Source: Verrucomicrobiota bacterium
GTDB lineage: Bacteria; Verrucomicrobiota; Kiritimatiellia; UBA8416; SLMC01
DNA length: 36,216 bases
Assembly: GCA_030018915.1 (NCBI GenBank)
Contig: JASEHE010000005.1
Coordinates: 1-36,216, forward strand
Direction of reading: 5' to 3'
The translations under genes and the position numbers were made by a program. Positions 2,988 to 29,932 of this stretch are shown in pieces. Below the pieces are notes generated by a model that had not been told where the DNA came from, ran no database searches, and saw nothing but the letters and a program-made list of their open reading frames with translations. Position 1 is the first letter of the stretch, and the number at the start of each line of letters is the position of its first letter.

Positions 2988-4844
2988 GTGATTCAAAACA
3001 CGAAATCAAGTGTCATCGTTGTTGTCGGCGCTGGACATGCCGGATGTGAAGCTGCTCTGGCATCCGCCAGAATGGGTGTTTCAACGCTCTTGATCACGCA
3101 AGGCAGGAACGCTGTTGCCAAGATGTCCTGCAATCCGGCAGTTGGAGGGATTGCCAAGTCACATCTCGTGTTCGAACTCGATGCCTTGGGCGGCGAAATT
3201 GCGGCCAACAGCGATCACACCGGAATCCAGTTCCGAGTTCTCAACACCAGCAAGGGGCCGGCAGTCAGGGCAAACCGTGTCCAGTGCGACAAAGACGCGT
3301 ATAGCCGGCGTATGCTGGCTGTGCTCGATCGGCAACAGAATCTCTCCGTCTTGGAAGCCGAGGCAACTGGCGTGACTGTGAAGAATGGCCGACTCTGCGG
3401 CATCAGGTTGTCCGATAGGACCGAATTGAATTGCCATGCGGCTGTCTTCACCCCAGGCACGTTCCTGAATGGGATGATCTACATTGGACATGCCGCTCAG
3501 TCGGGTGGCCGAATCGCGGAGAAATCCTCTGTGGACCTCGCAATCGCCATTCGTGGACTGGGCATCCAAACGGCTCGACTCAAAACCGGCACCCCGCCCC
3601 GCCTGAAGAAGGACACCTTGGATTATTCGAAGATGCAGATTCAGCAAGGAATGATTCCTCCGCCAATGTTCTCTTGGAAAGCCGGACATGATCCGGCATT
3701 GTTCCACGTGGAACAATTCGATCCCGCGCTCCGCCCATGGCCACCAGGTTCGGATCAAATCCCGTGCTATTTGACTCACACCACTATCGAAACCCACACC
3801 ATTGTCCACGACAATCTAACCAGGAGTGCCCTGTACGGTGGTTTGATCACAGGAATAGGCGTCCGATACTGCCCCTCGATCGAAGACAAGGTCGTCAAGT
3901 TCGCGGACAAACAGGCTCATCATGTCTTCATCGAACCCGAAGGACGATTTACCGATCTGGTCTACCCGAATGGGCTATCGAACAGCCTCCCACCGGAAAT
4001 CCAGGCTGACATGATTCACTCTGTCCCCGGCCTGGAACAAGCCGAAATCATCATTCCGGGATATGCAATCGAGTATGACTTTTTCCACCCCACTCAACTT
4101 AACCCCACTCTCGAGACCAAGGCCCTCGAAAACCTCTACTTCGCCGGTCAGATCAATGGGACGACTGGTTACGAGGAAGCAGCTGCCCAGGGATTCGTCG
4201 CTGGAGTCAATGCCGCGTTGAAGGTTCTTGGCTGTCCGCCTTTTGTGCTCGGCCGCAACGACGCCTATATCGGAGTTTTGATTGATGACTTGGTCACAAA
4301 GGGAACTGACGAACCCTACAGGATGTTTACCTCGCGGGCCGAGCGCCGATTAATTCTGCGTCAGGACAACGCCAGGTTCAGGCTCCGACCATTTGCTGAA
4401 TCTCTGGGCATAGTCCCCGAGAGCTACGTCAAAGAGACTCGCTCTCTGGAGAATCAGATCATTGAGGGTCTTGACCGCCTTCGATCAACTCGCCGAGACG
4501 GACAACTGCTGAGCGATCTCCTCAGACGTCCAGAGATTCGGTATCAATATCTCGGGATTGCCGATGCCGGCATGTCCAACCTGGTAATTGAACAGATCGA
4601 GATTGCGCTCAAGTACGAGGGCTACATCAAGCAAGAGTTCACATGGGCCGAAAAATCCGCCGAGCTTGAGAAAGCCAGGATCCCCCCGGACACAGACTAC
4701 TGGACAATGCCGGCGCTCAGGCACGAGGCCCGGGAGAAACTAAGCCGAATTCGCCCGACAACGCTCGGTCAGGCATCCAGAATGCCTGGTATCACTCCTG
4801 CTGATGTTTCTATCCTCTCGGTTCTGATCAAAAGAAGCTCTTGA
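2988..4844 (+). CDS. mnmG: tRNA uridine-5-carboxymethylaminomethyl enzyme MnmG (GidA)
   Basis: FAD-dependent partner of MnmE in wobble uridine modification. An in-frame TTG at 2916 would give 642 aa and a 55-bp overlap with mnmE, but those extra residues do not look like the family. GTG at 2988 gives 618 aa, close to the usual length, and puts the dinucleotide-binding motif GAGHAGCEAA at residues 14-23, as expected. A GGAA lies about 9 nt upstream. Other family marks are SCNPAVGGIAKSH, TPGTFLNG and the C-terminal ENLYFAGQINGTTGYEEAAAQG FAD-binding segment. The gene begins 17 nt after the mnmE stop, so the two are surely co-transcribed. Base composition is moderately less GC-rich than most of the window, like the 3' part of mnmE. 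Confidence 0.95.
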   Translation: MIQNTKSSVIVVVGAGHAGCEAALASARMGVSTLLITQGRNAVAKMSCNPAVGGIAKSHLVFELDALGGEIAANSDHTGIQFRVLNTSKGPAVRANRVQCDKDAYSRRMLAVLDRQQNLSVLEAEATGVTVKNGRLCGIRLSDRTELNCHAAVFTPGTFLNGMIYIGHAAQSGGRIAEKSSVDLAIAIRGLGIQTARLKTGTPPRLKKDTLDYSKMQIQQGMIPPPMFSWKAGHDPALFHVEQFDPALRPWPPGSDQIPCYLTHTTIETHTIVHDNLTRSALYGGLITGIGVRYCPSIEDKVVKFADKQAHHVFIEPEGRFTDLVYPNGLSNSLPPEIQADMIHSVPGLEQAEIIIPGYAIEYDFFHPTQLNPTLETKALENLYFAGQINGTTGYEEAAAQGFVAGVNAALKVLGCPPFVLGRNDAYIGVLIDDLVTKGTDEPYRMFTSRAERRLILRQDNARFRLRPFAESLGIVPESYVKETRSLENQIIEGLDRLRSTRRDGQLLSDLLRRPEIRYQYLGIADAGMSNLVIEQIEIALKYEGYIKQEFTWAEKSAELEKARIPPDTDYWTMPALRHEAREKLSRIRPTTLGQASRMPGITPADVSILSVLIKRSS

Positions 4845-5120: not shown

Positions 5121-5354
5121 TTATGCCTCGCCGCGCGACGCAGCTTCGCATGGTGTGCCGAGAAGCGCGCCGGTTCCTGGGCGTCGAGCCGTCGTGGCAA
5201 CCCGACTGGCTGATGCTCACGCTGCCGGCGCCCGATGTTCGATGCGACGCGGCCGGAGCTTGAGGGACGAGGTAGTACTTTGGCGAAGGCATGAAGACGG
5301 AGAGCCGTCTCGGAACCTCCAGGCAGAGGTAGGCGCAGATTACCCCCCGTGAGA

Positions 5355-5367
5355 GGGGCGTTGCCCC
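5355..5367 (-). terminator. Short GC hairpin downstream of copy A
   Basis: Perfect 5-bp arms with a 3-nt loop, about 75 bp past the copy A stop on the minus strand. An alternative overlapping pairing with a CCCC tract at 5343-5348 is possible. There is no U-run, so it is at most a weak or factor-assisted terminator. Confidence 0.2.
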
Positions 5368-5441
5368 CAATGGAGGCTCACGCCCGAAAACGCCAACCTC
5401 CATCCCTGAACCCTCCTCAACCGCAAACCTCATCGGCCCCC

Positions 5442-7295
5442 TCACATCTTGACCTCGATATCGAGGTCCTTGGCCTTGACCGTGCCGTCCTCTTTCTTTC
5501 CACCCTCGGCGGCTGCCGTGTCGGCCGCGATTTCCTCCGGCTTCTGAAAGGTTGGCAGATAGCGGTAATAAACCTGCAGCATCAGCGCGCACAGGGTCGT
5601 GTCCATCACCAGGCCCCCCTTTCCGTTGTCGACGTCCCAGTAGCCGATGTCAACCATCTTCCCGCTCGGCGCCTGAATCGCCTGTGGAATCACAATCTGC
5701 GCCTTGACCATCGGCACGGAGAACGCCTTGTTCCAGGTCTTCCAACATTCGCCGCCCTCGTGAAACCGCGCCTGGGTGTTGTAGTACCAGCGGTAGACCA
5801 TGCGCCACCTATCGCCCTCAGCAGCGCGATTCCAGTCGAACTGATCGGTTGCCATAAGGTAGGCCAGAGCCCCTTTGGTCTCCGGCGATTTGCCAATCCC
5901 CAGCAACTGGTGGCTTAGAATACCCGCACCTGTCAATCCGTGCTTGCCCGGCCCATCGTATCCGAATCCGCCGCTGGCGCTGTCGCCCTGGAAATTACAT
6001 TTGAACCCTTCGATCGCTTTCTTCATCGCATTGTCGAGGTCCGGGCATTCCACGCCGGCGATCTTTCCGGCCTTCATGGCCTGGGCGGCCCAGCCCATGA
6101 TGGAGGTGTCGTTGCGCGGCGCGCCTGGCGTCAAACTATAGTCGAATCCGCCGCTCGGGTTTTGGCCGGCGATAATCACATCCATGCCCTTCCTGGCCGC
6201 TGCCTTGAGCGACGGCATCCCGATCATACTGAACGCCTCGCACACCGCATACGTGGCAATCAAATGCTCATACTGGACGTTCAGCCACGCCCCATCCTCT
6301 CTTTGGCGCTTCAGCAGCCATTTGATCGCCTTGTCCACAGTAGCCCCGAACTCCGGCGATGCCGGCGTCTCCCCGTGTGCCAGGTATGTCAGTAGCGCCA
6401 GGCCCGTGAGCCCGGCGGGGGCGTCCATCTTGCCGATACCGCCGCCCGACGTGCTGTTCCAGCTCCCGTCGCCCTCCTGGTTCTTCTTCAGCCACCGCAG
6501 CGCCCGCAGCACCGCCCCTTCCGTCACGCCGCTGCCTCCGTGCCGCCCCAGCGCGCTGCCGCGCGCGCCCGGACTGCGGCTTCCGAAGATTCCCTTCATG
6601 ATCACCGGACTCTTGATGATGGCCACGGAGTCCAGCAGCGCCGGCTGCGGGCTGAAGTCCGCGTCCGGCCCAACCGACGTTTCTTTGCTCGTCGAGGGAA
6701 TGAACGTCTCGTTCACCTGCGCGACGTCGGTGGGTTCCGGCGGCTGGATTTCCGGCTCCGGCGGTGGCTCGACTTCCTTGAGTTCCTCCACAACCTTCTC
6801 CTCCCGGATGCTGACCTGCACGGTGGTGTTCTTCGCCGGCGCCAGGGCGACGACAACCGTTGCGATCAGAAGCGCGAGAGAGGGAACGACGATCCCAGCG
6901 GTCGGCGCCCAGAGCCGCAGGACTTGCAGCCTGGCCCACTTGTAGTCGCCCGATTCCTTGGGCTGCCGGATCCCATGCAGAACCTTTCTGACTTTCTCCA
7001 TGAACGACATTTCATCGAACAGCCGGAGCCAGTCCGCTCGCGGCGGCAGGCTATCGGTTTCCAAGGCTTCTACTCGATCAAGCACCGCCGCCTGCGCGTT
7101 GGAAGTCATGAGAAGAGAAGTCGTTGTGCCCTTCAACATCTCGGTGATGGACTGGGAAAATTTGTTGAGTTGGTTGAGTTCAAGGCGGCAGGCGTCGCAG
7201 CCCAGCAAGTGCTCGCGCACCACTTTCCGCATCGCCGCGGGTAGCGATCGATTCGCGTAGTCGAGAAACAACTTCTGATATGTTTTGCAGCGCAT
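5442..7295 (-). CDS. Anti-sigma-like zinc finger fused to membrane segment and squalene-cyclase-like toroid (copy A)
   Basis: 617 aa. Residues 1-40 form a putative zinc-binding anti-sigma finger (zf-HC2 type): C3, H29, C33 and C36 in HLLGCDACRLE. A cytoplasmic linker follows, then one membrane segment at about 131-152. A TonB-like Pro/Glu stretch comes next (EVEPPPEPEIQPPEPTD, about 174-190). From about 255 there are repeats of the prenyltransferase/squalene-oxidase type, such as WLKKNQEGDGSW and WLLKRQREDGAW. No DxDD-TA protonation motif is seen, so cyclase activity is unlikely and the toroid may be a binding domain. The ATG at 7295 has GGAGG 8 nt upstream. The gene lies 55 bp after the ECF sigma gene, the standard place for an anti-sigma factor. 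I infer it holds the sigma at the membrane and senses something outside. The last 507 residues equal those of copy B. Confidence 0.85.
   Translation of the reverse strand: MRCKTYQKLFLDYANRSLPAAMRKVVREHLLGCDACRLELNQLNKFSQSITEMLKGTTTSLLMTSNAQAAVLDRVEALETDSLPPRADWLRLFDEMSFMEKVRKVLHGIRQPKESGDYKWARLQVLRLWAPTAGIVVPSLALLIATVVVALAPAKNTTVQVSIREEKVVEELKEVEPPPEPEIQPPEPTDVAQVNETFIPSTSKETSVGPDADFSPQPALLDSVAIIKSPVIMKGIFGSRSPGARGSALGRHGGSGVTEGAVLRALRWLKKNQEGDGSWNSTSGGGIGKMDAPAGLTGLALLTYLAHGETPASPEFGATVDKAIKWLLKRQREDGAWLNVQYEHLIATYAVCEAFSMIGMPSLKAAARKGMDVIIAGQNPSGGFDYSLTPGAPRNDTSIMGWAAQAMKAGKIAGVECPDLDNAMKKAIEGFKCNFQGDSASGGFGYDGPGKHGLTGAGILSHQLLGIGKSPETKGALAYLMATDQFDWNRAAEGDRWRMVYRWYYNTQARFHEGGECWKTWNKAFSVPMVKAQIVIPQAIQAPSGKMVDIGYWDVDNGKGGLVMDTTLCALMLQVYYRYLPTFQKPEEIAADTAAAEGGKKEDGTVKAKDLDIEVKM
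5444..6968 (-). repeat. 1525-bp direct repeat, copy A
   Basis: This segment matches 10109-11633 without gaps (constant offset of 4665) and, wherever I compared it, base for base. The overlapping reading frames on both strands also translate identically in the two copies, so silent differences are unlikely. It covers the last 507 codons of the copy A gene. One end is one base past the last sense codon, so the stop codons differ (TGA here, TAG in copy B). The other end is in the cytoplasmic juxtamembrane segment, after which the two genes are similar but clearly diverged. Confidence 0.95.
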
Positions 7296-7350
7296 GTTTT
7301 GATCCTCCCGACTATGAGTGTCGCGAACCTGTCAGGAGTTCAAAACAATC

Positions 7351-7995
7351 TCACTTTTTCTGGAGGGCCCGGCGGAGGTGTTTGACGGCGTAGTGAAGGC
7401 GGGACTTGGCGGTGCCCAGGCTTACCCCAGTCTGCTCGGCAATTTCCGGAACGTTCATGCCGTTGAAATAGTAGAGAATGACCGCGTCGCGGTGCTCGTC
7501 GGACAGCCCGCGCAGCGCCTGCATGAGCGCGGCCGGCGTAGCGTCCGTGTCTGATCCCGAGTCTCGGCCAGCGCTCTCGATCGCCGGCTCCGGCAGGTCG
7601 GCCGCATAGATCAACCGGCTCTGCTTGCGCCGGAAATTGCGGCTCACGTTGATGAGGATGCCGTGAAGCCAGGAGTAGAGCGACGACCGCCCGAGAAAAG
7701 AGCCGGCCGAACGGACGGCTTGGACAAACGTGTCCTGCGCGAGGTCCTGGGCATCCGCCTCGCTGCGGCCACACATCAGGTAGGCCGACCGGAGCAGCCG
7801 GTCGCCGTAGAGAGTCATGACCTCCCGGATGGCGACCGGGTCTCTGCGCTTCAGTCCGTCCGCCAGTTCGGCGTCGCGAGACCGGCTGCCGGGATCTTCC
7901 TCGCCGCCGGGCGCGGCCGAATCGCCGGGCGCCTCCGGCAGCCCGCCCGTTGCGCGCGCCGGATCATTCCCGTCCAAATCGCCGGTTGAGTTCAT
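7351..7995 (-). CDS. ECF-type RNA polymerase sigma factor
   Basis: 214 aa. Region 2 is seen around AYLMCGRSEADAQDLAQDTF and SLYSWLHGILINVSRNFRRK. Region 4 is in LRGLSDEHRDAVILYYFNGM followed by the helix-turn-helix IAEQTGVSLGTAKSRLHYA near the C-terminus. The first 45 residues are acidic and low in complexity. The ATG at 7995 lies inside the mutL 3' end (32-bp overlap), suggesting translational coupling or internal initiation of transcription. The next gene (copy A) begins with an anti-sigma zinc finger, so the pair should form a sigma/anti-sigma switch. Target promoters cannot be read from this window. Confidence 0.93.
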   Translation of the reverse strand: MNSTGDLDGNDPARATGGLPEAPGDSAAPGGEEDPGSRSRDAELADGLKRRDPVAIREVMTLYGDRLLRSAYLMCGRSEADAQDLAQDTFVQAVRSAGSFLGRSSLYSWLHGILINVSRNFRRKQSRLIYAADLPEPAIESAGRDSGSDTDATPAALMQALRGLSDEHRDAVILYYFNGMNVPEIAEQTGVSLGTAKSRLHYAVKHLRRALQKK

Positions 7996-9766
7996 GGAAC
8001 GAAGTGAAAATCAGCGTCGGCCGTCCGTGCGGGCACGTGTAGGGCATTTCCGCGAGCGCCAGGTCCACCACCAGTTTCTCGATTTCCGCGAGGTTCAACT
8101 TGTCGCGCGCCTTGAATGCCGACTTGCAGGCCGCCTGCGCGATCGCTTCCTCCTGCCATCGTCCTTTGCCGCCACGTGGTCCGGCCACTTCCAGGCTGCG
8201 CGCGATCTCGATCAAAATGGCTCGAGCCGAACCCTCCGCCAGACAGGTCGGCAGGGCGTCCACCAGAAACGCGTCTCCGCCGAACTCCGACAGGCCGAAA
8301 CCCATCTCCCGCAGCAGCTCCAGGCGCTTTCGGACGCGTTGCGCGTCCTGTGGCTGGAACTCCACGGTTTCCGGCGTCAACAGCCCCTGCGTCTGCACCC
8401 GCCGCCCTGTCACCTCTGCCATGAATCGCTCGAATAGTACCCGCTCGTGCGCCGCGTGCGGGTCCATCACCACGAAGCCGTCCTCCGTCTCGAGCAGCAC
8501 GTACAGGCCGCCGATCTGGCCGACGACCCGACACCACGACCACGGCGCCGTCGCGCGGCCCGCAACGCCGGTCGCCGCGTCGGGCCCGGCCGAGACCCCA
8601 CCCGTCTCCGGACCGCCAGGCCGCCCCGCAGCCGGGCCTAGCGGCGGCAGCCTTGGATACTGGAATGCGCGCGCCGCCGGCAGGTTCTCGATCGCCAGTT
8701 GGATTTGCGCCGGAGGCTTTGCGCGCGGGACCCCATTCCACGCCTCGGGCCGGATCACGGCCTGCAGCCCCGGCGACCCAAGCGCCAGGCGGATGGCGGC
8801 AACCACCGCATCCCGGACCTCGGAGGGACGCCGGAACCGCACCTCCTTCTTGGTCGGATGCGCGTTGACATCCACCAGCCCGGGGTCTAGGGCCACGAAG
8901 AGGAAGACCGACGGCTGGCGATCCGCGGCCAGCAGCGTGTGGTAGCCCTCACGGATGGCGTAGGCGATCAGGGCGGCCGTGGTGGCGCGGCCGTTCACAA
9001 AGATGAACTGCTCGGTCCGGTCAGACCGGCTCATCGAGGGCAAGCTGACGTGCCCGGAGATTCGGACGTCGCCGGCCTCGTGCCGCAGCGGGCGCAGGTT
9101 GGAGAGATACTCCCGGCCGAACAACTCACGGATGCGGTCCTCCAGGTTACTACCTGCGGCGAGGCGGCAGATTTCGGCTCCGTCCACGCGCAGGCTCATG
9201 CCGCGATCCGGATGCGCCAGGGCCTGCACGATGAACACGCCCCGCAGGTGCGAAAGCTCGGTGGGCTGGGATCGAAGGAACTTGCGCCGGACCGGCACGT
9301 TGAAGAACAGGTCTCTCACTTCCACCGACGCGCCGGCCGGCGCGCCGATGTCCCGCACATCCTGCAGCTTGCCGCCCGTCACACGGATTTCCGTTCCGAC
9401 CGTCTCGCCCCTGGCGCAGGTTATGAGGCGAAAGCGGGACACCGAGGCAATGGCCGCCAGAGCCTCGCCGCGGAAACCGAGCGTAGCAATCCGTTCGATG
9501 TCGTCCACGTCGCGGATTTTGCTCGTGGCGTGGCGCTCGATGGACAAGAGGGCGTCATCCCGACTCATTCCGCTGCCGTTATCCCGCGCGGCCACCAGCT
9601 TGCGGCCGCCTTCGACGATCTCCACGTCAACCTGTGAAGCGCCGGCGTCAATCGCGTTTTCCATGAGTTCCTTGACGACGGAAGCCGGCCGCTCGACCAC
9701 CTCACCGGCGGCGATCTTGTTGACGATGTGGTCGGAAAGCACCAGGATATGCGGCGGCGACACCAT
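7964..9766 (-). CDS. mutL: DNA mismatch repair protein MutL
   Basis: 600 aa from the ATG at 9766, chosen because the family-conserved IVNKIAAGEVVERPASVVKE begins shortly after it. An upstream in-frame start at 9823 would add 19 unlike residues. The N-terminal GHKL ATPase motifs are all present: ELMENAIDAGA, DNGSGM and GFRGEALAAIASV. The C-terminal domain keeps a near-canonical endonuclease motif, DPHA-x2-E-x4-E (Q replaced by P), plus an ACKSAF segment and the CPHGRP zinc-site motif. The protein is therefore probably a nicking MutL that makes the strand break in repair rather than relying on MutH. No mutS is in the window. A TATTCT close upstream is too near the ATG to be scored as a promoter. 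Confidence 0.95.
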   Translation of the reverse strand: MVSPPHILVLSDHIVNKIAAGEVVERPASVVKELMENAIDAGASQVDVEIVEGGRKLVAARDNGSGMSRDDALLSIERHATSKIRDVDDIERIATLGFRGEALAAIASVSRFRLITCARGETVGTEIRVTGGKLQDVRDIGAPAGASVEVRDLFFNVPVRRKFLRSQPTELSHLRGVFIVQALAHPDRGMSLRVDGAEICRLAAGSNLEDRIRELFGREYLSNLRPLRHEAGDVRISGHVSLPSMSRSDRTEQFIFVNGRATTAALIAYAIREGYHTLLAADRQPSVFLFVALDPGLVDVNAHPTKKEVRFRRPSEVRDAVVAAIRLALGSPGLQAVIRPEAWNGVPRAKPPAQIQLAIENLPAARAFQYPRLPPLGPAAGRPGGPETGGVSAGPDAATGVAGRATAPWSWCRVVGQIGGLYVLLETEDGFVVMDPHAAHERVLFERFMAEVTGRRVQTQGLLTPETVEFQPQDAQRVRKRLELLREMGFGLSEFGGDAFLVDALPTCLAEGSARAILIEIARSLEVAGPRGGKGRWQEEAIAQAACKSAFKARDKLNLAEIEKLVVDLALAEMPYTCPHGRPTLIFTSFHELNRRFGRE

Positions 9767-9820
9767 GCTTTCAGAATACCGGCGCAGGGTGGCGAGAAGC
9801 AAGACGCAAAGAGGTTCGGG

Positions 9821-9918
9821 CATGGTTCATGAGTTCACGGTTCACGGTTGAAGAGGTTGACCTTTTCGGCTTCATCTCCGCCAACCTGGAATCTCTGAAC
9901 CTGGAACCGTGAACCATG
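9821..9918. repeat. Inverted GGTTCACGGTT / AACCGTGAACC repeats between copy B and mutL
   Basis: The gap 9767-10106 holds no gene I can support. It contains short repeated GGTTCA/GTTCACGG units at 9824-9849 and their complement at 9905-9918, giving 11-bp perfect arms (9839-9849 with 9905-9915). CATGGTTCA at 9821-9829 is also matched by the right-hand unit. It could form a large hairpin between two minus-strand genes. Similar TTCCAG/GGTTCC-rich tracts occur in other gaps of this window (13817-13837 and 19836-19908). Confidence 0.5.
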
Positions 9919-10106
9919 TCGAGGTTCGTATTGGCTTCGGGGTCGGGGCTCCCAAAACCGCAGGTTCTGGCGGCGCGTCGAAACGGCAACGTTTCAGGGA
10001 CCCAACGCCGAGAGTTGACGAGCTGCGATGCGCGCGGGCCCAGGACATGGACACCCGTCGGAGACCGAAAAGCCTGCCGTTCGGCTTTACCCCTGCTGGG
10101 CGGGGT

Positions 10107-11747
10107 CTACATCTTGACCTCGATATCGAGGTCCTTGGCCTTGACCGTGCCGTCCTCTTTCTTTCCACCCTCGGCGGCTGCCGTGTCGGCCGCGATTTCC
10201 TCCGGCTTCTGAAAGGTTGGCAGATAGCGGTAATAAACCTGCAGCATCAGCGCGCACAGGGTCGTGTCCATCACCAGGCCCCCCTTTCCGTTGTCGACGT
10301 CCCAGTAGCCGATGTCAACCATCTTCCCGCTCGGCGCCTGAATCGCCTGTGGAATCACAATCTGCGCCTTGACCATCGGCACGGAGAACGCCTTGTTCCA
10401 GGTCTTCCAACATTCGCCGCCCTCGTGAAACCGCGCCTGGGTGTTGTAGTACCAGCGGTAGACCATGCGCCACCTATCGCCCTCAGCAGCGCGATTCCAG
10501 TCGAACTGATCGGTTGCCATAAGGTAGGCCAGAGCCCCTTTGGTCTCCGGCGATTTGCCAATCCCCAGCAACTGGTGGCTTAGAATACCCGCACCTGTCA
10601 ATCCGTGCTTGCCCGGCCCATCGTATCCGAATCCGCCGCTGGCGCTGTCGCCCTGGAAATTACATTTGAACCCTTCGATCGCTTTCTTCATCGCATTGTC
10701 GAGGTCCGGGCATTCCACGCCGGCGATCTTTCCGGCCTTCATGGCCTGGGCGGCCCAGCCCATGATGGAGGTGTCGTTGCGCGGCGCGCCTGGCGTCAAA
10801 CTATAGTCGAATCCGCCGCTCGGGTTTTGGCCGGCGATAATCACATCCATGCCCTTCCTGGCCGCTGCCTTGAGCGACGGCATCCCGATCATACTGAACG
10901 CCTCGCACACCGCATACGTGGCAATCAAATGCTCATACTGGACGTTCAGCCACGCCCCATCCTCTCTTTGGCGCTTCAGCAGCCATTTGATCGCCTTGTC
11001 CACAGTAGCCCCGAACTCCGGCGATGCCGGCGTCTCCCCGTGTGCCAGGTATGTCAGTAGCGCCAGGCCCGTGAGCCCGGCGGGGGCGTCCATCTTGCCG
11101 ATACCGCCGCCCGACGTGCTGTTCCAGCTCCCGTCGCCCTCCTGGTTCTTCTTCAGCCACCGCAGCGCCCGCAGCACCGCCCCTTCCGTCACGCCGCTGC
11201 CTCCGTGCCGCCCCAGCGCGCTGCCGCGCGCGCCCGGACTGCGGCTTCCGAAGATTCCCTTCATGATCACCGGACTCTTGATGATGGCCACGGAGTCCAG
11301 CAGCGCCGGCTGCGGGCTGAAGTCCGCGTCCGGCCCAACCGACGTTTCTTTGCTCGTCGAGGGAATGAACGTCTCGTTCACCTGCGCGACGTCGGTGGGT
11401 TCCGGCGGCTGGATTTCCGGCTCCGGCGGTGGCTCGACTTCCTTGAGTTCCTCCACAACCTTCTCCTCCCGGATGCTGACCTGCACGGTGGTGTTCTTCG
11501 CCGGCGCCAGGGCGACGACAACCGTTGCGATCAGAAGCGCGAGAGAGGGAACGACGATCCCAGCGGTCGGCGCCCAGAGCCGCAGGACTTGCAGCCTGGC
11601 CCACTTGTAGTCGCCCGATTCCTTGGGCTGCCGCAAGCCCGCGCGAATCTTCCGCCATCGCTTCCAGAACGGCATCTCCTCGAAGAGTTTCATCATCTCG
11701 TCGAGCGAATTCGACTCAACTATCTGCTGCGGGGTTTCTTCGCTCAT
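10107..11747 (-). CDS. TonB-shaped membrane protein with squalene-cyclase-like toroid (copy B)
   Basis: 546 aa from the ATG at 11747, which has AAAGGA about 7 nt upstream; a longer in-frame start at 11807 adds 20 residues without a clear ribosome site. There is a short cytoplasmic N-terminus (1-50) and one membrane segment (about 60-81). A Glu/Pro-rich periplasmic linker (about 100-120) resembles the spacer of TonB. Then comes an alpha/alpha toroid with prenyltransferase/squalene-oxidase repeats. It lacks the zinc finger of copy A. It is the last gene after exbB-exbD-exbD on the same strand, the position where a TonB would be expected, although 244 bp separate it from exbD. I infer that it receives energy from, or anchors to, the ExbB/D channel. 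No catalytic cyclase motif was seen. Confidence 0.85.
   Translation of the reverse strand: MSEETPQQIVESNSLDEMMKLFEEMPFWKRWRKIRAGLRQPKESGDYKWARLQVLRLWAPTAGIVVPSLALLIATVVVALAPAKNTTVQVSIREEKVVEELKEVEPPPEPEIQPPEPTDVAQVNETFIPSTSKETSVGPDADFSPQPALLDSVAIIKSPVIMKGIFGSRSPGARGSALGRHGGSGVTEGAVLRALRWLKKNQEGDGSWNSTSGGGIGKMDAPAGLTGLALLTYLAHGETPASPEFGATVDKAIKWLLKRQREDGAWLNVQYEHLIATYAVCEAFSMIGMPSLKAAARKGMDVIIAGQNPSGGFDYSLTPGAPRNDTSIMGWAAQAMKAGKIAGVECPDLDNAMKKAIEGFKCNFQGDSASGGFGYDGPGKHGLTGAGILSHQLLGIGKSPETKGALAYLMATDQFDWNRAAEGDRWRMVYRWYYNTQARFHEGGECWKTWNKAFSVPMVKAQIVIPQAIQAPSGKMVDIGYWDVDNGKGGLVMDTTLCALMLQVYYRYLPTFQKPEEIAADTAAAEGGKKEDGTVKAKDLDIEVKM
10109..11633 (-). repeat. 1525-bp direct repeat, copy B
   Basis: Second copy of the segment at 5444-6968, same orientation, separated from the first by 3140 bp that carry mutL and the sigma gene. 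No insertion, deletion or substitution was noticed. The homologous but diverged codons just upstream (LFEEMPFWKRWRKIRAGLR here, LFDEMSFMEKVRKVLHGIR in copy A) show that the two genes were already paralogues when this block was homogenised. Confidence 0.95.
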
Positions 11748-12426: not shown

Positions 12427-12891
12427 CTACCGTCTGACCATGCCCCCGCCCTTGTCCCCCCGGTGCCGACCGGCCGTTGCCTTGTGTTCCTTGACAGCCA
12501 CGAAATCGAGCCGCCAGATTCCGACGTCCGTGCAGACATCCAGGACCTTGCGCACATCCTGGTGCTTGGCGCGGTAGTCGGCCCGGATCAGCACGGGAAA
12601 CTCCGCCGAGCCGTATCGCTTCCGGCGCGTTGCCAGGATGTTCCGGAGTTGGCTCGCGCCGTGGGTCTTTCCATGGATGCTGATCGCGCCTCGGCGATCC
12701 ACTTCGACAATGAACAACCGCGGGTCCTGGACGTCCTGGATCACCGGCCCGTGCACGGCGTCCTCGAGGATGATGTCTTCGTTTACCTGCTCGTTGAGCT
12801 TGATCGTGACGATGAAGAAGATCATGAGCTGAAACACGACGTCAATCATCGGCGTCATGTTAACCTCGGGATCGTCAAGTTTCTTCCTCAT
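12427..12891 (-). CDS. ExbD/TolR-family proton-channel subunit (first)
   Basis: 154 aa from the ATG at 12891, with GGAGG 4-5 nt upstream. The membrane helix NMTPMIDVVFQLMIFFIVT includes the key aspartate D17. The periplasmic part contains FIVEVDRRGAISIHG and PVLIRADYRAKHQDVRKVLD, the typical ExbD beta-hairpin and helix. The tail from about residue 137 is basic and Gly-rich (GRHRGDKGGG). It sits 43 bp after exbB. With ExbB it should form an inner-membrane channel that converts proton flow into movement or tension on a periplasm-spanning partner. Confidence 0.93.
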   Translation of the reverse strand: MRKKLDDPEVNMTPMIDVVFQLMIFFIVTIKLNEQVNEDIILEDAVHGPVIQDVQDPRLFIVEVDRRGAISIHGKTHGASQLRNILATRRKRYGSAEFPVLIRADYRAKHQDVRKVLDVCTDVGIWRLDFVAVKEHKATAGRHRGDKGGGMVRR

Positions 12892-12934
12892 AACGTCCTC
12901 CCCGCCGGATGCGGGAGTCCGGCAGTCGAGCCGC

Positions 12935-13744
12935 CTACTCCTGGACCACTTCCACGTTGCGCAGGTCCTTGATGAGTTCCATTGTAAGCGCTTCCATCCT
13001 GAGCACGATCTTGTTGGCCATGTTCCGGAAGAAAAAGAACCCGCCGACCGACGGCACGGAAATGATGAGCCCGACAGCCGTGGTATAGAGCGCCTGGCCG
13101 ATAGCCATGGCCAGGTACCCGACATCCACGCTGCCCTTGGAGATTTCCGCGAAGGCCCAGATCATGCCTTGCACGGTGCCGAGAAGACCCAGCATGGGCG
13201 ACACGTTCGACATGACCGAGATCCAGTTGACTCTTTGCATCATCCTCTCGGCCTCGAGGTCCGCCGCCGTGCGAATCGCCTCCTGAATGACGTCGAACCC
13301 TTCCTCCACGTGGCTGAATCCGGCTGTTAAGATGTTGGCCAGCGGCCCGGGGTCGTCTTCGCAATTCTGGAGGGCCTTCACGACATCGCCTTCGCCCATG
13401 GCCTGCGTGACGTTGGACACGAGGGCCGGAGACATGATTCGCCTCTCCTGAATCAGGATATAGCAGTCAACCATGAGGTACACCGCGATGCCGCCCGAAC
13501 CGAACAGCCCGATCCACAGGAGCACGCCCATCACTCCGGAGCCGCCGATGACCGCGAAAAGACCCCAGGACTGCGGCGCTCGCTCCGCAGCAACGGCTTT
13601 TCCGGACTCATCCGCCAGTTGCCCCACGCCACTGGCCCCGGAGGCGGGAGCGGCCGGCGCTTGAGCGGACGCACACATGGCAGCCAACCACAACGACGCG
13701 ATTCCGACAAGCATTGCGATCCCCGCGAACTTAGTCTTCCTCAT
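12935..13744 (-). CDS. ExbB/TolQ/MotA-family proton-channel protein with signal peptide
   Basis: 269 aa from the ATG at 13744. A signal peptide-like start (MRKTKFAGIAMLVG, cleavage possible after ASA at about 25-27) leads to an Ala/Pro-rich stretch. Three membrane helices follow at about 65-95, 182-202 and 213-240. The core signature MSNVSPMLGLLGTVQGMIWAF and the AIGQALYTTAVGLIISVPSV helix are typical of ExbB/TolQ. The extra N-terminal secreted segment is longer than in E. coli TolQ but common in ExbB relatives. It lies 130 bp after the TPR protein and directly precedes two exbD genes. The 13745-13874 gap contains a TTCCAG-rich tract only. Confidence 0.94.
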   Translation of the reverse strand: MRKTKFAGIAMLVGIASLWLAAMCASAQAPAAPASGASGVGQLADESGKAVAAERAPQSWGLFAVIGGSGVMGVLLWIGLFGSGGIAVYLMVDCYILIQERRIMSPALVSNVTQAMGEGDVVKALQNCEDDPGPLANILTAGFSHVEEGFDVIQEAIRTAADLEAERMMQRVNWISVMSNVSPMLGLLGTVQGMIWAFAEISKGSVDVGYLAMAIGQALYTTAVGLIISVPSVGGFFFFRNMANKIVLRMEALTMELIKDLRNVEVVQE

Positions 13745-13874
13745 TGACGATCCTGTCCTTTCTATGTCTCTCGTTTTGGTTGCGGTTGTCAGCATTATGC
13801 GCTTTTCGCTCTTCGCTTTTCCAGGTTCCAGTTTCACGCCGCTTCCGGGCGAAGTTCCGGACGCAGCGCAGAGA

Positions 13875-14705
13875 CTACTCCAATCCTTTGAGGTTTCTAC
13901 TGTAGGAGCTTTCGGGATAATCATTCAATAATTTTCTTTTCCATTTCTCCGCGTGCGAATGCTCGCCGAGTTTCTCATGGGCCTTCATGGCCTTGGCCAA
14001 GGCCTCGGGCTGGGCGTGTTTCACGTCCTGGAACAGCATGATGGTGCGCAGATAGCCGTCAACCAGCGCGTCCTTGGTGTTGCCCGCATCCATCTCGATA
14101 TCGCCGCGCGCAATCTGCGCCATGGCGACCGTGTCCCTGGGCCCGCTCTCGATGGCGTCCAGCAGCGTCTTCTTGAGCCTGACGATCAGGCCCGCCTGCC
14201 GCAAAGCCTGCCAGTAGGTCCGGCAGATTTCTCCCGAACGAATCGCGTCTGGGTTCGAGTCGGCAACCATATCCAGATATTCCACCGCCTCCTTGGGCTT
14301 CTTCATCTTTAGGTAGGCCTCGGCCAGCCACCGCGCTGCCGAGACGTCCCACTTGAGCATGGTGTATTCCTTGACAATGCCCTCCAGAGTCGGGATGGCT
14401 GACGAAGGCGTCCGCTGCGAATACTGAACGGCCGCGTCCAGATTGGCCGGCTTTGGAACATCCAGGCCCTTGACCTGATCCAGCGCAATCTGAATCGTCA
14501 CGCCGCCCGGCATGCCGATGAGGTACTTCTTTTGCGACGGCAGCCATCGAATCGGCGCCAGACCATTGTTGGGAACCCGCTGGCCATTGATCTTGATCAC
14601 GGCGCCGCGGACTTCGGCGCGCGCCGGCGAGGCGCCTAGAAGCAGCGGAGCCAAAATCAACCCGGCTAGGACGGCTCGCCAAGTTATGCGACAGGATGTG
14701 TTCAT
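13875..14705 (-). CDS. Secreted TPR-like repeat protein
   Basis: 276 aa. Signal peptide at 1-31 (MNTSCRITWRAVLAGLILAP, then ASPARA). After a short beta-rich region (VRGAVIKINGQRVPNNG), helical pairs of TPR type follow: AARWLAEAYLKMKKPKEAVEYL, then GDIEMDAGNTKDALVDGYLR, and a C-terminal AEKWKRKLLNDYPESSYSR typical of BamD/YbgF-like TPRs. Its ATG overlaps the stop of the larger TPR gene by 4 bp (ATGA), so translation is coupled. It is likely a periplasmic or outer-membrane-associated scaffold for the ExbB/ExbD machine encoded downstream. No enzymatic motif. Confidence 0.82.
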   Translation of the reverse strand: MNTSCRITWRAVLAGLILAPLLLGASPARAEVRGAVIKINGQRVPNNGLAPIRWLPSQKKYLIGMPGGVTIQIALDQVKGLDVPKPANLDAAVQYSQRTPSSAIPTLEGIVKEYTMLKWDVSAARWLAEAYLKMKKPKEAVEYLDMVADSNPDAIRSGEICRTYWQALRQAGLIVRLKKTLLDAIESGPRDTVAMAQIARGDIEMDAGNTKDALVDGYLRTIMLFQDVKHAQPEALAKAMKAHEKLGEHSHAEKWKRKLLNDYPESSYSRNLKGLE

Positions 14706-17700
14706 GGTTTGTTTTCCTCCGCTGGTTTTGCCAGCGCGGGTTGAGCCAGCGCCCTGGCGGTCGCATCTGGCTTCGGCTCGGCCGGTTTGCCATCGATCTT
14801 TGCCGGTTCGGCGGCCGGCGCGTTCGTGGCGGTTGGCGCCGCCGCGCCGGGCCCTTCCGCGCCCGTCTCCGGCGTCGCCACTGGCTTCCCGGTCGGAGTC
14901 TTCGGCGACTGGTCGGGCGAGATGCCTTCCAGGACCATCTTGGTTTGGGCCTCGCCGCGCCACTTCCGCACGTCGTCCACGTATTTTCCGCCGCTCGCAA
15001 AACTCTCCAAATACTCGTTGCAGCGATCCCAGCCGTCCTTCCACCGCTTGCTCTTCATATGGAGAGGGATCGCCAGATGAAACGCTTCTTCCATGCGCAT
15101 CCGGACTTTCGCGTCCTCCAGGTCGCCCGTGGTGCAGAGCGACCACAACGGCACAATCGCTTTTCCGATCGCCGCCTCGACGCTCTGTGGATCGCCCCAC
15201 TTTTCCTCGGCCTCCACCACGGACAGGAATATCTTGCCGATGGCCAGTTGCGCAAAGGCTTGCTCGCCGGCGGTCTTCATGTAGCGGCGGGCAAAATTGA
15301 CGTTCTTGACCGCCTCGTTGAAAAACTTGATCCGTTTCTCGCGATCCTGTTCCTTGGCGGCCTGCTCGGCGTAGGCGCGGCTCAGGTAGAATGCGGCGTC
15401 CACGATGCTCCTGGACTGCGGGTAGTCCTTCTTGACCGCTTCCAGCGCCTTGACGGCCTCGTCGCCTAGATTGAGCTCGGTCGCGCACTTGCCCTGCCCG
15501 AGCACGGCCAGCTCGTGGGCTGTCGCGCCTTTCTTGGCGTTTTCCACCACTTTGCGGAACGCCTGCAGAGCAATCTCGTGCTCCTTAGCCTCCGCCAGCT
15601 TCAGGCCCGCAATTAGAATCTGCATCTCGTTGTACTGGGCGCCACCGGCCGCAAACATGTCCTTGAACGCCCTGATGGCCTCGTCGCGCATACCGAGCTG
15701 GAGCAGGTTCATGGCGAGGATGAACTTGGAGTTCTTCGCCTCATCGCTCTCCGGGTATTGTTTCTGCAGCTTCTTCAGCGCCTCTTTCGCCTTGTTGGCG
15801 TCTTCGAGGATCGTGTGCAGTGTCCCGAGTTGCGCCAGGGCCGACGGCGCGAAACGGGAGTTGGGGAACTCCTGCGCCAGCCGCGAGTGGCTGGCGATCG
15901 CCATCTGCTTGAGCTCGCCCACCTTGTCCGCCGGCCGGGTCAGCATCGAGTAGCACATGCCCGTGTAGTAGAGCGATCCCTGGAGCATGATCTGGTTGTT
16001 TTCCTTGTCGTCCGGCTTCTGGGAGTTGTGCGGATGAGCGGGATCGCTCAGAATCTTGATTAGGTCGCCGAACCGCTTGATGGCTGTGGCCAGGTGCTTC
16101 TCGCCGGCTTCCTTCTTTGCGTCGTCGCCTTTGCGGACATAATCGGAGCCCAGCGACTCGTAGGCATAGGCCAGGCGGTACATCGAGGCGACCAGGAGCT
16201 GCCCCGGCGCCGTCTCTTTTTTCAGCGACTCGATCAGGGCCAGAAGCGTTTTGGTTTCCTGGATGAACTCCTCCTTCTTGTTGTAGCATTGCGCGATCTT
16301 GCTCAAGGCCGGGTGAAAAACGCGGTTGCCCGTGTAGTTGGTCTGAATCTGGGCGAAATAGGCGAGCGCGCCGTCCATGTTGCCCGCGTCGAAAAGTTGC
16401 CGGCCGAATTCGAAGAGCTTCTCCGGCGCGCGGGGATGACGCGCAAACGACTGGAAGAACGCGCTGTAGGCCACCGCTTTGCGGTCTGCTCGCTTCAGTT
16501 CCTCGCATTTGCCGGCGATCCTCAGCAACTGGTCGCCCGCCTTGACCGACAACGCCTTGTTCTTGTTGAAGCGCTCCGCGACGTATCGGACGATCATGTC
16601 CACGCAACGGTCGTTCATGACCCGGTCGTCTTCGGACACGTTTTCGAGCGCGTTCATTTCAATGTGGCAGGTCGCCAGATCGGCAAAGGCATAAACCGCA
16701 GGTTCGCCTTCAGGGAACATCTTGAGCGCCAGGAAGCATGCCTCGGCCGCATCCTTGTACTGATTCTGGTTCAGCAGGACCCGCGCCTCATGGAACTGGG
16801 CCTTCTCGATCTCGGCCAGTTTCTCCGGCGGAATGGTAAGAGCGATCGTCGCGCCGAGTTCCTCCAGCAATTTCCGGGCTTCTCCCGCCTTTTCCATCGC
16901 ATCCGGCGCCCAGGTCGAACTCGGATAGTTGTAGAAAACGTTCATGAAATGAATGTAGGCGCCGTCGCCACCCTTGCCCTTTTCGTCCTTGTTGGCCAGC
17001 AGATTGAACGCCTTTTCCTTGTCCCCGTCGTTCTTGATAGGAAAGAGTTTCTGGGCTTCCTTCAGCTTCATTTCGCCAAGCAGGTATCGGCATTGAGCCA
17101 GGGGACTGTGCTTGGTGAGGTTGACGCATTGTTTCTGTTCCTCGTGCCGCAGGGCGCCGTCCAACTGCACGATTTGCTCCCAGGAGTTTTCCACCTGAAA
17201 CATGGCCCCTTCCACGTCGTTCTCCATGACTTTCATGTGGGCCATCATGGTCATGGCCTTCCCGAACCACAGGTCGGTCGAAGCGCCGTAAAGGACTTCG
17301 TCCAGCAGTTTCTCGACCTCCCGGAAGATCGCCTTGCGGACGTCCGGCTTGGCCTCCTCGGCGTCCTTGAGCATCAGTTCCGCCGTCTCGGCCATGATTT
17401 GGCGCTTCACGTGCTTCTTGAGCTGAGCCTTGAGTGTCGCACGGTAGGCCTCGATGGCTGCCGCCCGATCCCCCATCAGTATCAGCAGCTGCGCGCACTT
17501 GTACGCGGAATCGCGAAAGAACTTGTTGAGTTCCTTCGGCGGGCCATCCTTGTATTTCCTGAAGAAACCGTCGTACAGGCCTCGCGCTTCCTTGTACTTG
17601 CCCCATGCGTAGTAGCCGTCGGCCAGCGCCAGCTTCATGGCCCAGGCCGCCGCGCTCTCCTGGTCCGCCTCCTGGGCGATGACGCGCTTGACCTCGTCGA

Positions 17701-18031
17701 ACTTACCCAGCGCAATCAGCCCCTGCAGTTGAATCACCTTAAAACGCGGTCCGACGGCGTCGGGATTCAAGCGGCCCAGAACAATCTTGGCGTAGTCGGG
17801 AAGGCCGTTGTTCGTGAGCATCTCGGCATATTTGAGCTCCAACTCGATAACCGCGTCGAGTTCAGCCTCCTTTTCCTTCTCCTCATCGTCACCCTCCGCC
17901 GGAACGGCCTCCTCGGCGACCGGTTCCTCCTCCATCGGACCGGCCTTCGCCGGTCCCTTGACAGCCGCGCCGGCCGGCGCGAAACTCAGGCAAAGGGAAA
18001 ATAGAAACAGGGAAGCCCACTTGGTCGGCAT
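14702..18031 (-). CDS. Large secreted TPR-repeat protein
   Basis: 1109 aa from the ATG at 18031 (AGGGG about 9 nt upstream; an in-frame ATG at 18049 is less likely). Signal peptide of about 25 residues ending APAGAA. A very acidic segment follows (about 35-60), then more than 900 residues of helical repeats with TPR features, for example ALKKLQKQYPESDEAKNSKF and VKKDYPQSRSIVDAAFYLSR. The tail is Pro/Ala/Glu-rich (about 1030-1109). Such YPxS repeats resemble YbgF, BamD and other envelope TPR proteins. It is the first gene of the operon leading through TPR2 and ExbB/ExbD to copy B, behind a good promoter. A periplasmic scaffold or outer-membrane partner is inferred. Confidence 0.85.
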   Translation of the reverse strand: MPTKWASLFLFSLCLSFAPAGAAVKGPAKAGPMEEEPVAEEAVPAEGDDEEKEKEAELDAVIELELKYAEMLTNNGLPDYAKIVLGRLNPDAVGPRFKVIQLQGLIALGKFDEVKRVIAQEADQESAAAWAMKLALADGYYAWGKYKEARGLYDGFFRKYKDGPPKELNKFFRDSAYKCAQLLILMGDRAAAIEAYRATLKAQLKKHVKRQIMAETAELMLKDAEEAKPDVRKAIFREVEKLLDEVLYGASTDLWFGKAMTMMAHMKVMENDVEGAMFQVENSWEQIVQLDGALRHEEQKQCVNLTKHSPLAQCRYLLGEMKLKEAQKLFPIKNDGDKEKAFNLLANKDEKGKGGDGAYIHFMNVFYNYPSSTWAPDAMEKAGEARKLLEELGATIALTIPPEKLAEIEKAQFHEARVLLNQNQYKDAAEACFLALKMFPEGEPAVYAFADLATCHIEMNALENVSEDDRVMNDRCVDMIVRYVAERFNKNKALSVKAGDQLLRIAGKCEELKRADRKAVAYSAFFQSFARHPRAPEKLFEFGRQLFDAGNMDGALAYFAQIQTNYTGNRVFHPALSKIAQCYNKKEEFIQETKTLLALIESLKKETAPGQLLVASMYRLAYAYESLGSDYVRKGDDAKKEAGEKHLATAIKRFGDLIKILSDPAHPHNSQKPDDKENNQIMLQGSLYYTGMCYSMLTRPADKVGELKQMAIASHSRLAQEFPNSRFAPSALAQLGTLHTILEDANKAKEALKKLQKQYPESDEAKNSKFILAMNLLQLGMRDEAIRAFKDMFAAGGAQYNEMQILIAGLKLAEAKEHEIALQAFRKVVENAKKGATAHELAVLGQGKCATELNLGDEAVKALEAVKKDYPQSRSIVDAAFYLSRAYAEQAAKEQDREKRIKFFNEAVKNVNFARRYMKTAGEQAFAQLAIGKIFLSVVEAEEKWGDPQSVEAAIGKAIVPLWSLCTTGDLEDAKVRMRMEEAFHLAIPLHMKSKRWKDGWDRCNEYLESFASGGKYVDDVRKWRGEAQTKMVLEGISPDQSPKTPTGKPVATPETGAEGPGAAAPTATNAPAAEPAKIDGKPAEPKPDATARALAQPALAKPAEENKP

Positions 18032-18059
18032 GTGACGGACCCCTGCCATGACGACGCCA

Positions 18060-27321: not shown

Positions 27322-29793
27322 TTAGTCCTTGGCTCCCTGGACGCACTCCCCGTCCCAATCGGGTCCAGGCGGATGCTGCTGGTAGCGCAGGGCGCGGTCC
27401 CTGAGAATCGCCGAGGGCGGGTCGTCTTCCCGGGCCAATATCTCATCGAGCCGGCGGCGGCATTCGGCCCATTCCCGCCGCGTGAAACAGGCCCGCGCCG
27501 CCTCATAGTCGCGGATCACACGAAGCCCGGCCTCGCCCACGGACTCCTGCCGGCCTTCCAGCGCATAGGCCGTTGTGCTCAGGCTCTTGCCCAGCACGCG
27601 AATCTTGCCCAGGGCGCGGACCACGATTTCAGAGCCCAGAAGCGCTCGCGTCTGTTCGCCGATGATGATATCGGCGCCGAATTCCTTGTTGGCTGCTTCC
27701 AGCCGAAATGCCAGGTTGACGGTATCACCCAGCACCGTGTACTGGAACTTGCGCGCGGAACCAACGTTCCCAGCCGTCACCGTTCCAGAGTTGACGCCCA
27801 TTCGAACGTTCAAGGTCACGCCATACTCGACCTGGAGCCGGGCGTTCAACCGCCGCACTATTTCGCGGTGTTCCAGGGCGGCTTGGCACGTCTTGCGGGC
27901 ATGCTCGGGGTCCGGATACGGGGCGCCCCAGACCGCCATGATGCCGTCGCCGATGTACTTATCCAGATACCCCCCGTGATTGAGAATGCAGTCGGTGATC
28001 GGGGTCAGGTAGGCGTTCAGGAGTTCGATCAGCTTTTCCGGCGGCAGGTGTTCGCTGATCGAAGTGAAGCCCGCAATATCCGAGGTGAACACCGTGGCCT
28101 CGACGTTCCGGCCGGAAATCCCCAGCCGGTCGGGGTGCTCCTCCAGATAGGCAAGCACCTTGGCCGACACCATTCGCGAGAACATTCCACGGATTCTGCG
28201 CTTGGCCTTCTCTTCCGCGAAGAACCGATAGGATACCACCCCGAACGCGCATATTCCGATGTACAACAGGGGCCAGACGACTGGGAGAACGACGGCGTTG
28301 ACGTGCACATTGAGATAGCCGACCACGAGATAGAGGAGGCTGAAGAGGCCCGCCACAACACCGAGCCGCGGTGATTTCTCCACCTCGCAGAGCCCTGTGA
28401 ACAGAAGGAAGAGCACAACCATGAGCGCCCGGCTTTGAGCCGCGTTCAGCGGGGCGAGAAATCGTCCGGCCAGAATGTTGTCGATAGCGGTCAGATGCGT
28501 CAGGACCAACGGCGTCTGGGTGTCCAATGGACACGATCCGACGTCCATGCCGGTGCACGCAACCCCAACCAAGACCACGCGGCCGTCCAGGAGCGGGCGA
28601 AACCGGGCGGCGAGCTTCCGGGCCTGTTCGGCGGGAATCGTCGGGGAGGGCGCCACGTCGGCGAAGTCCAAGGCGGGGAAATCCTGGATGCGCGCGAAAT
28701 AGTTGAGAAACAGTTCGCCGTTGGCGTTGATGGGAATCCGCAAGGCCGGTCGGCCCGGGGGCCGGACAACAATCTCCTTGCCGAAGTGGACCTGAACCAC
28801 GCCTGGCTTCAGGGGAAAAGACACGCCCAGTTGAAGAAGGCTGGCGGCGAACGCGAACGAAGGGACAAAGGCGTCGGCCGGCCAGCCGGCCGACGCGTCC
28901 GCGTAGCTGAATCCCAGAACCATCGGCAGGCGCCGAATGACCCCATCAGGGTCGGGCCGCGCATTGATCGGCCCGAGCCACACGTAATCAATGAAATCCC
29001 TGGACGGCATCCTGGCGTTCGGCGAGAAGGCGTAGCCCTGCCGATTTGCCGGCTCAGGGAAATGAATGTCGTCCGCGGGGATCGCCATGTCCAGCACATA
29101 TCGAACCGCGTCGTCTGGCGCGGCTGCCGATCCCGTCCGGTCGCCATGAGCAGGGCCGCGCGACCACTGAGGAATCGCGTGAGGCTTGGGATCAATCCAT
29201 CCGCCTCGGAAGTAGAATGGAAACAGGATCGGAAACCGGTTGTTGCCCATGATCGTCGCCAGGCAATGGGCCAGTTGGTCGCCGCCCTGCTCGAACGACA
29301 ACCGGTTGATTTCGGCAATGGTCTCGTGGGAGAGCATTTGCCGGCCGTCCCGGGACACCCGGTCGAGATCGCGGACGATCTTTCCGATTCGCGCGGAATC
29401 TTCACTGACACGCGATTCCACCGTCGCGCCGGATGTGCCCAGGTCCTCCTGAAAAACGACATCGTAAGCCAGTACGCCGGGCCGGTAGTGCCGATCAAAA
29501 AACACAAGCTGGTCAAAAAACGGCTTGCGCGACAACCAGTGCCCCGCGCCAAATCGTCCCAGCCGGCTCTGGGTCTGCGCGTCGATTGCTAGCAACGTCA
29601 AGGGGACGCGACCGCGCGCGGCAGGGTTGCGCGCCAACGCGTAGCGCAAACGCAAGCGCATGTCGCCGGCGGCGGCTTCCCACGTTGTCAGCAATTGGCC
29701 GGCCGCGACGGCGAACCCCAGCGACAAGCCGGATATGGCCCAGACCACGACCCGACCGGCCACAGCCGATTTGCCTTTCCTATCGCGTCTCAT
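27322..29793 (-). CDS. CHASE2-domain adenylate cyclase (class III)
   Basis: 823 aa from the ATG at 29793; the frame is open further upstream but that part overlaps the divergent FecR-like gene. An N-terminal membrane helix (about 12-35) is followed by a large CHASE2-type extracytoplasmic sensor (about 40-440). A cluster of three membrane helices (about 466-521) leads to a class III cyclase domain (about 563-746). Catalytic features are intact: metal aspartates in FTSDIAGFTS and DKYIGDGIMAVWG, the lysine in the latter, and YTVLGDTVNLAFRLE with the D, N and R needed for ATP use. It should make cAMP in response to an external signal. A short helical tail (about 770-823) follows. It shares a 139-bp upstream gap with the FecR-like gene. 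Confidence 0.93.
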   Translation of the reverse strand: MRRDRKGKSAVAGRVVVWAISGLSLGFAVAAGQLLTTWEAAAGDMRLRLRYALARNPAARGRVPLTLLAIDAQTQSRLGRFGAGHWLSRKPFFDQLVFFDRHYRPGVLAYDVVFQEDLGTSGATVESRVSEDSARIGKIVRDLDRVSRDGRQMLSHETIAEINRLSFEQGGDQLAHCLATIMGNNRFPILFPFYFRGGWIDPKPHAIPQWSRGPAHGDRTGSAAAPDDAVRYVLDMAIPADDIHFPEPANRQGYAFSPNARMPSRDFIDYVWLGPINARPDPDGVIRRLPMVLGFSYADASAGWPADAFVPSFAFAASLLQLGVSFPLKPGVVQVHFGKEIVVRPPGRPALRIPINANGELFLNYFARIQDFPALDFADVAPSPTIPAEQARKLAARFRPLLDGRVVLVGVACTGMDVGSCPLDTQTPLVLTHLTAIDNILAGRFLAPLNAAQSRALMVVLFLLFTGLCEVEKSPRLGVVAGLFSLLYLVVGYLNVHVNAVVLPVVWPLLYIGICAFGVVSYRFFAEEKAKRRIRGMFSRMVSAKVLAYLEEHPDRLGISGRNVEATVFTSDIAGFTSISEHLPPEKLIELLNAYLTPITDCILNHGGYLDKYIGDGIMAVWGAPYPDPEHARKTCQAALEHREIVRRLNARLQVEYGVTLNVRMGVNSGTVTAGNVGSARKFQYTVLGDTVNLAFRLEAANKEFGADIIIGEQTRALLGSEIVVRALGKIRVLGKSLSTTAYALEGRQESVGEAGLRVIRDYEAARACFTRREWAECRRRLDEILAREDDPPSAILRDRALRYQQHPPGPDWDGECVQGAKD

Positions 29794-29848
29794 TTGGCTC
29801 ACTATAGCAGTCACGCTGGACGGAACCACAAAAAATCGGTTTTCGGCA

Positions 29849-29878: not shown

Positions 29879-29932
29879 GCCAAAATAATGATTGATCGCG
29901 TGTTGTTGGAAACCAACGCCAGGAGATAATGG

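Follow-up and report, generated by a model that had tools for sequence, protein, structure and literature searches.

In the genome of an uncultured Verrucomicrobiota bacterium (GTDB lineage Kiritimatiellia; UBA8416; SLMC01), two genes with different heads and roles share one identical stretch that fills their second halves, and we consider it probable that recent ectopic gene conversion between the two, on a background of recurrent concerted evolution, has produced it. Both genes lie in the window analysed here, the 36,216 nucleotides at positions 1 to 36,216 of the forward strand of contig JASEHE010000005.1 (assembly GCA_030018915.1; 2.1 Mb, 209 contigs, 90.5% complete). The first, AS, is an anti-sigma gene and carries copy 1 of the block; the second, TB, is the toroid gene of an ExbBD cluster and carries copy 2. 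Below, G000 is the genome of the window, win_AS and win_TB are its AS and TB, and G002 is a relative in the same family; the family comparison covers two genomes besides G000. Coordinates are collected in Table 1.

An earlier note made from the sequence alone had read 5444-6968 and 10109-11633 as colinear and identical, silent positions included, and base-by-base exact extension confirmed this at 1525/1525 bases. The two copies are in direct orientation with a start-to-start distance of 4665, and chance was ruled out as the source of the match. A DNA search of the whole assembly matched these two places only, and no third copy was found. As that note had also said, the block stops one base past the last sense codon, the stop codons themselves differ (TGA vs TAG), and it begins where the upstream codons are homologous but diverged. 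The AS segment LFDEMSFMEKVRK and the TB segment LFEEMPFWKRWRK show clear homology over codons 89-108, yet share only 32/60 bases. Across codons 86-108 the proportions of synonymous (pS) and nonsynonymous (pN) differences between AS and TB are 0.80 and 0.38, vs no difference at all, silent sites included, over the 508 codons 110-617. The tract of identity thus sits inside a longer, more diverged homology, as is characteristic of gene conversion.

The tract starts inside homologous, silent-saturated codons and ends at the stop codon, where homology runs out. When the 150 nt past each stop were compared by eye, with no alignment, no likeness was evident. Because homology between AS and TB ends at the stop codon and conversion needs homology, a tract end at this point is expected, and bacterial conversion tracts are limited by the bounds of the gene (PMC5485169). 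For these reasons the coincidence of the block with the reading-frame end, which had been offered as an argument against mis-assembly, is not a strong one.

The heads outside the tract mark two different proteins, in line with the note, which had spoken of two regulators or machines that differ in their cytoplasmic heads. AS encodes a zinc-finger anti-sigma factor, and TB is the terminal gene of an ExbB/ExbD operon. AS matches Pfam zf-HC2 at 1.9e-6, above the gathering score, and SQHop_cyclase_C at 1.7e-10. Its N-terminus carries an Hx3Cx2C motif (H29-x3-C33-x2-C36), as in class I zinc-binding anti-sigma factors, and hydropathy gives a single strong hydrophobic stretch, that is, one transmembrane segment (TM). 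The gene lies 55 nt downstream of a gene for an extracytoplasmic function (ECF) sigma factor, and the same sigma-AS pairing was found at four G002 loci. Judged by its sequence, AS is a zinc-finger anti-sigma factor beside its ECF sigma factor, which it would inhibit. At G000:C158:8725-10739 (L003), a second, distant sigma gene likewise stands before a gene that encodes a zinc-finger anti-sigma head, TM and toroid (492-aa frame, 28% to AS), and in the hit lists sigma and toroid matches also stand close together in G001:C202, G002:C363 and G013:C1. These genomes may therefore hold a wider class of anti-sigma factors that sense through a toroid.

TB closes a cluster whose gene order, TPR-TPR-ExbB-ExbD-ExbD-TB-mutL, is kept in many relatives of the order and class; mutL adjoins the toroid gene in many of them. 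Because the ExbBD-TB-mutL order recurs so widely, TB is taken as the ancestral locus. Both ExbD homologues keep the TM aspartate. An AlphaFold2 model of TB, built on 22 sequences, has a TM helix spanning 45-80, followed by disorder over the linker (85-168) and, from about 171 onwards, a helical domain predicted with confidence. Foldseek matched this domain to alpha/alpha toroids, including GH76, AprG, squalene-hopene cyclase, farnesyltransferase beta and complement C3. A TM, a long proline-rich linker, a globular C-terminal domain and a gene adjacent to ExbB/ExbD homologues are features that TB shares with TonB/TolA force transducers. A canonical TonB was rejected for TB, which has no SHLS motif and neither a TonB nor a TolA C-terminal fold, but an alpha/alpha toroid instead. 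Squalene-hopene cyclase was also rejected as the identity of the toroid (TIGR01507 28.9 bits vs a cut-off of 431; no DxDD in AS). Since neither a catalytic DxDD nor a thioester motif was found in AS, the toroid is read as a putative binding domain.

In order to place the fusion of anti-sigma head and toroid in time, we relied on sigma orthology together with common architecture. In G002, TB lies in an ExbBD cluster (C111), and a sigma gene is paired with an AS-toroid fusion at four further places (C399, C89, C7 and C256). The best four matches of the window sigma factor in 8 genomes were exactly the four AS-linked sigma factors of G002 (E 5e-35 to 1.5e-29; next 1e-15), and 8 further genomes gave no near match (best 5e-16). 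In the sigma tree the window sigma factor and these four join in one clade (100/98). Within the order, only G000 and G002 were seen to have the full AS fusion, with no others among 195 genomes of the phylum, and all five sigma-linked AS genes share one architecture. Because the sigma factors are orthologous and the fusion was seen, within the order, in these two genomes only, the AS module most likely predates the G000/G002 split. A scan of contigs returned a single locus (L006 = G002:C256) and no new family member. The AS gene at G002:C256 (L041) is interrupted at 3071-3139, between codons ~276 and 297-307, by a frameshift or an assembly error.

Had the two genes evolved independently since that split, AS toroids would group with AS and TB toroids with TB. 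In the toroid tree the grouping is by genome instead: win_AS is joined to win_TB with 100/100 support, and all the toroids of G001 and G002 are together sister to this pair. Over codons 109-300 the five G002 sequences form a clade at 100/99, and approximately unbiased (AU) tests rejected both a window+G2_AS grouping (p=0.017) and a window+G2_TB grouping (p=0.001). Therefore, AS and TB of G002 have also grown alike since the split, a result that is independent of the identical block in the window. Paralogues are thus more alike within than between genomes though their duplication most likely predates the split, which is the pattern of concerted evolution and the one that the earlier note had expected from a comparison of relatives. 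Taken together, the tract start in diverged homologous codons, the orthologous sigma modules and the toroids grouping by genome support the gene conversion between pre-existing paralogues that it had suggested.

The part that is matched in G002 is the TM and proline-rich linker, from codon 109 to ~280. In the linker (codons 156-235), pN is 0.01-0.04 among G002 paralogues vs 0.28-0.30 between genomes; in the toroid core (codons 341-470) the same paralogues have diverged to a pN of 0.25-0.45, with silent sites mostly saturated. The idea that both proteins are given the same exported toroid therefore holds for G000 but not as a conserved rule. The sequence pattern indicates that homogenisation in G002 was partial and happened longer ago; the protein sequence of the linker is probably kept in part by purifying selection there.

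We propose the following course of events. In an ancestor of the G000/G002 family, AS would have taken on a TM, linker and toroid of the TB type. In G002, AS and TB were homogenised since the split, mainly in the TM, linker and first toroid helices. In G000, the half of one gene that encodes the membrane and periplasmic parts would have been overwritten recently with the homologous half of the other, 4.7 kb off, by an ectopic conversion presumably of RecA type. The tract would begin at codon 110 of AS (39 of TB) and extend to the stop codon, where homology ends. As to its direction, segment trees of codons 109-300 and 301-617 placed the shared block nearer neither the TB nor the AS orthologues.

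The alternative that survives best is a recent duplication with a new fusion, in which the TB toroid was copied onto a toroid-less anti-sigma factor separately in G000 and in G002. Such lineage-specific duplication would also give toroids that cluster by genome, and anti-sigma factor and toroid did come together elsewhere in G000, at C158. However, AS codons 87-108 are of the TB type and yet saturated against TB, so a TB-type segment had joined AS long before the identical block arose. Repeated fusion further has to contend with orthologous sigma genes and five linked AS genes of one architecture, and no toroid-less member of the window sigma clade was seen in the 8 + 8 genomes searched. We regard this alternative as unlikely. 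Somewhat less credible again is an assembly artefact, in which a short-read assembler merged two similar toroids or duplicated one. The start of the contig shares ~54 nt with the starts of C45, C63 and C49, which suggests a small-k graph, and a repeat of 1.5 kb is longer than usual inserts. In contrast, all four junctions fit the biology, with ExbD2-TB and TB-mutL orders that recur in relatives and a sigma-AS order that recurs in G002; no other contig carries the block. Moreover, where a direct repeat encloses one unique loop, only one path should run through every edge of the graph, and at such k an assembler would not be expected to merge copies that differ by several per cent. Finally, very strong constraint on both copies without conversion would account for G002 paralogues that vary at silent sites of the linker and yet have almost the same linker amino acids, but it is highly improbable and is refuted for G000, where silent sites are identical too over 508 codons, which protein constraint cannot bring about; in G002 constraint may act beside conversion.

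Several observations weigh against recent conversion on a background of concerted evolution, or against parts of the model built on it. Independent fusions in each genus keep a small probability, since head identity is modest (37-42% over head and junction) and the junction is too short for a tree. Since short-read de Bruijn assembly could merge near-identical copies, the 100% is to be read as at least near-identical, and the true identity may be slightly lower. Codons 301-617 do not resolve the history of G002 in the tree test. A GENECONV-like silent-run test among the five G002 paralogues was not significant (lowest permutation p 0.06), and we accordingly claim no recent mosaic in G002. In addition, the SHLS motif with its TM histidine was absent in 22/22 TB relatives checked; because the TM lacks this motor-binding motif, coupling of TB to the motor is suggested by synteny and not by a motif.

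With these points in mind, conversion between AS and TB can be joined to a working model of function. TB would be a transducer driven by the proton motive force (PMF), like TonB/TolA, with a toroid at its tip. AS, which has the same motor-facing and periplasmic parts, could compete for the same partner or report on it, and a change in the state of the partner or of the motor would then lead AS to release its ECF sigma factor. Converted alleles would keep sensor and effector matched, which is a likely reason for their persistence and for the recurrence of homogenisation. On this basis we put forward, tentatively and as a possibility about which we remain more doubtful than confident, that AS is a decoy transducer: a copy of the TM, linker and tip of an ExbBD-driven transducer, matched to it by recurrent conversion, through which the cell would sense how the motor is working or how heavily it is loaded. 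In the literature searched, no description of such a signalling arrangement was found, and searches for the combinations toroid/ExbD and anti-sigma/squalene cyclase returned nothing relevant.

Elements of this picture are known from other systems. In the Fec system, the anti-sigma factor contacts the outer-membrane receptor through its own periplasmic domain, whereas the TM, linker and tip of AS duplicate those of the transducer itself. The TonB-ExbB-ExbD system with FecR/FecI-type cell-surface signalling (the subject of PMC9249621) is similar in that one circuit couples a transducer powered by ExbBD to an ECF sigma/anti-sigma pair, a link that is suggested here by gene neighbourhood and a shared domain. 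The closest published system to the TB cluster is the class of vWA force transducers of PVC (Planctomycetes, Verrucomicrobia and Chlamydiae) bacteria, which was found via Tichowtungia and has the order TPR, tolQ-like, two tolR-like, transducer (PMC12204202). TB has the same cluster layout, a TM, a proline-rich linker and a globular non-TonB tip; unlike the vWA transducers, it has an alpha/alpha toroid as the tip and a TM without SHLS. The vWA transducer paper makes no mention of toroid, squalene or prenyltransferase domains (PMC12204202). AS resembles class I (ASDI) zinc-binding anti-sigma factors (PMC7406223) in its N-terminal Hx3Cx2C domain, one TM, C-terminal sensory part and neighbouring ECF sigma factor, and differs in that the sensory part is letter-for-letter common with a motor-cluster protein. 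Gene conversion itself is familiar from tufA/tufB in Salmonella and from long-lasting concerted evolution in prokaryotes (PMC5485169, PMC6053082). As with tufA/tufB, paralogues are kept alike by conversion, tracts end with the gene, and similarity is greater within than between genomes. In contrast to tufA/tufB and the other surveyed cases, which are near full-length and concern one function, only half of each gene is involved here, and the heads and roles differ (motor cluster, anti-sigma factor). None of the cases found involves a regulator and a motor-cluster protein that are homogenised over half a gene.

Table 1. Features of the window around the two block copies
Feature	Position	Strand	Basis or remark
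Identical block, copy 1	5444..6968	(-)	AS codons 110-617 and first base of AS stop
Identical block, copy 2	10109..11633	(-)	TB codons 39-546 and first base of TB stop
AS, 617 aa: zf-HC2 anti-sigma head, TM (~residues 128-152), proline-rich linker, alpha/alpha toroid	5442..7295	(-)	Pfam, hydropathy
AS codons 87-108, unconverted juxtamembrane segment LFDEMSFMEKVRK, outside the tract	6972..7037	(-)	Homologous to TB head
ECF sigma factor, partner of AS; start overlaps mutL end	7351..7995	(-)	Pfam sigma70 r2/r4; sigma tree
mutL, between the block copies; open reading frame (ORF) to 9823, probable start near 9766	7964..9766	(-)	Pfam DNA_mis_repair and MutL_C; TIGR00585
TB, 546 aa, TonB/TolA-like in three parts: short cytoplasmic head and TM, proline-rich linker, alpha/alpha toroid	10107..11747	(-)	Pfam; AlphaFold2
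ExbD/TolR-like protein 2; TM aspartate in MTPMIDVVFQ	11992..12390	(-)	Pfam ExbD 1.1e-18
ExbD/TolR-like protein 1; ORF 12427-13125, probable start near 12891	12427..12891	(-)	Pfam ExbD 3.1e-21
ExbB/TolQ-like protein	12935..13924	(-)	Pfam MotA_ExbB 1.1e-23
TPR protein b, conserved part of ORF 13875-15488	13875..14615	(-)	Pfam TPR; residues 292-535 conserved in relatives
TPR protein a, first gene of ExbBD cluster	14702..18049	(-)	Pfam TPR; synteny

Further observations concern the surroundings of these genes. Because mutL and the sigma gene lie between the identical direct repeats (5444-11633), a recombination event between the repeats would remove these two genes while one TB stayed intact, a possible mutator route. 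Just downstream of the AS stop, a stretch of ~52 bp (window 5345-5400) recurs at 84-88% in C66 and C207 as a dispersed small repeat. The first ~54 bases of the contig (window 1-55) are found again inside C6 and C190 and at the start, or close to it, of C45, C49, C63 and C13, as a dispersed, assembly-breaking repeat. Upstream of the cluster lies a gene for a protein with CHASE2 and guanylate/adenylate cyclase catalytic domains (window 27322-30414). In another family of the order, tandem toroid genes with 87-92% nucleotide identity were seen at L048 (the end of G013:C8) and L049 (G013:C36), partly at contig ends; the gene family of the AS and TB toroids has been amplified or homogenised there recently.

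Collectively, our results describe a regulator and a component of a machine whose heads differ and which are matched only over the half that would meet the membrane motor and the periplasm. They suggest a testable principle, in which conversion keeps sensor and effector matched. They also suggest that, in addition to the vWA class reported not long ago, putative ExbBD transducers with a toroid tip form a class of their own that is found across Kiritimatiellae.

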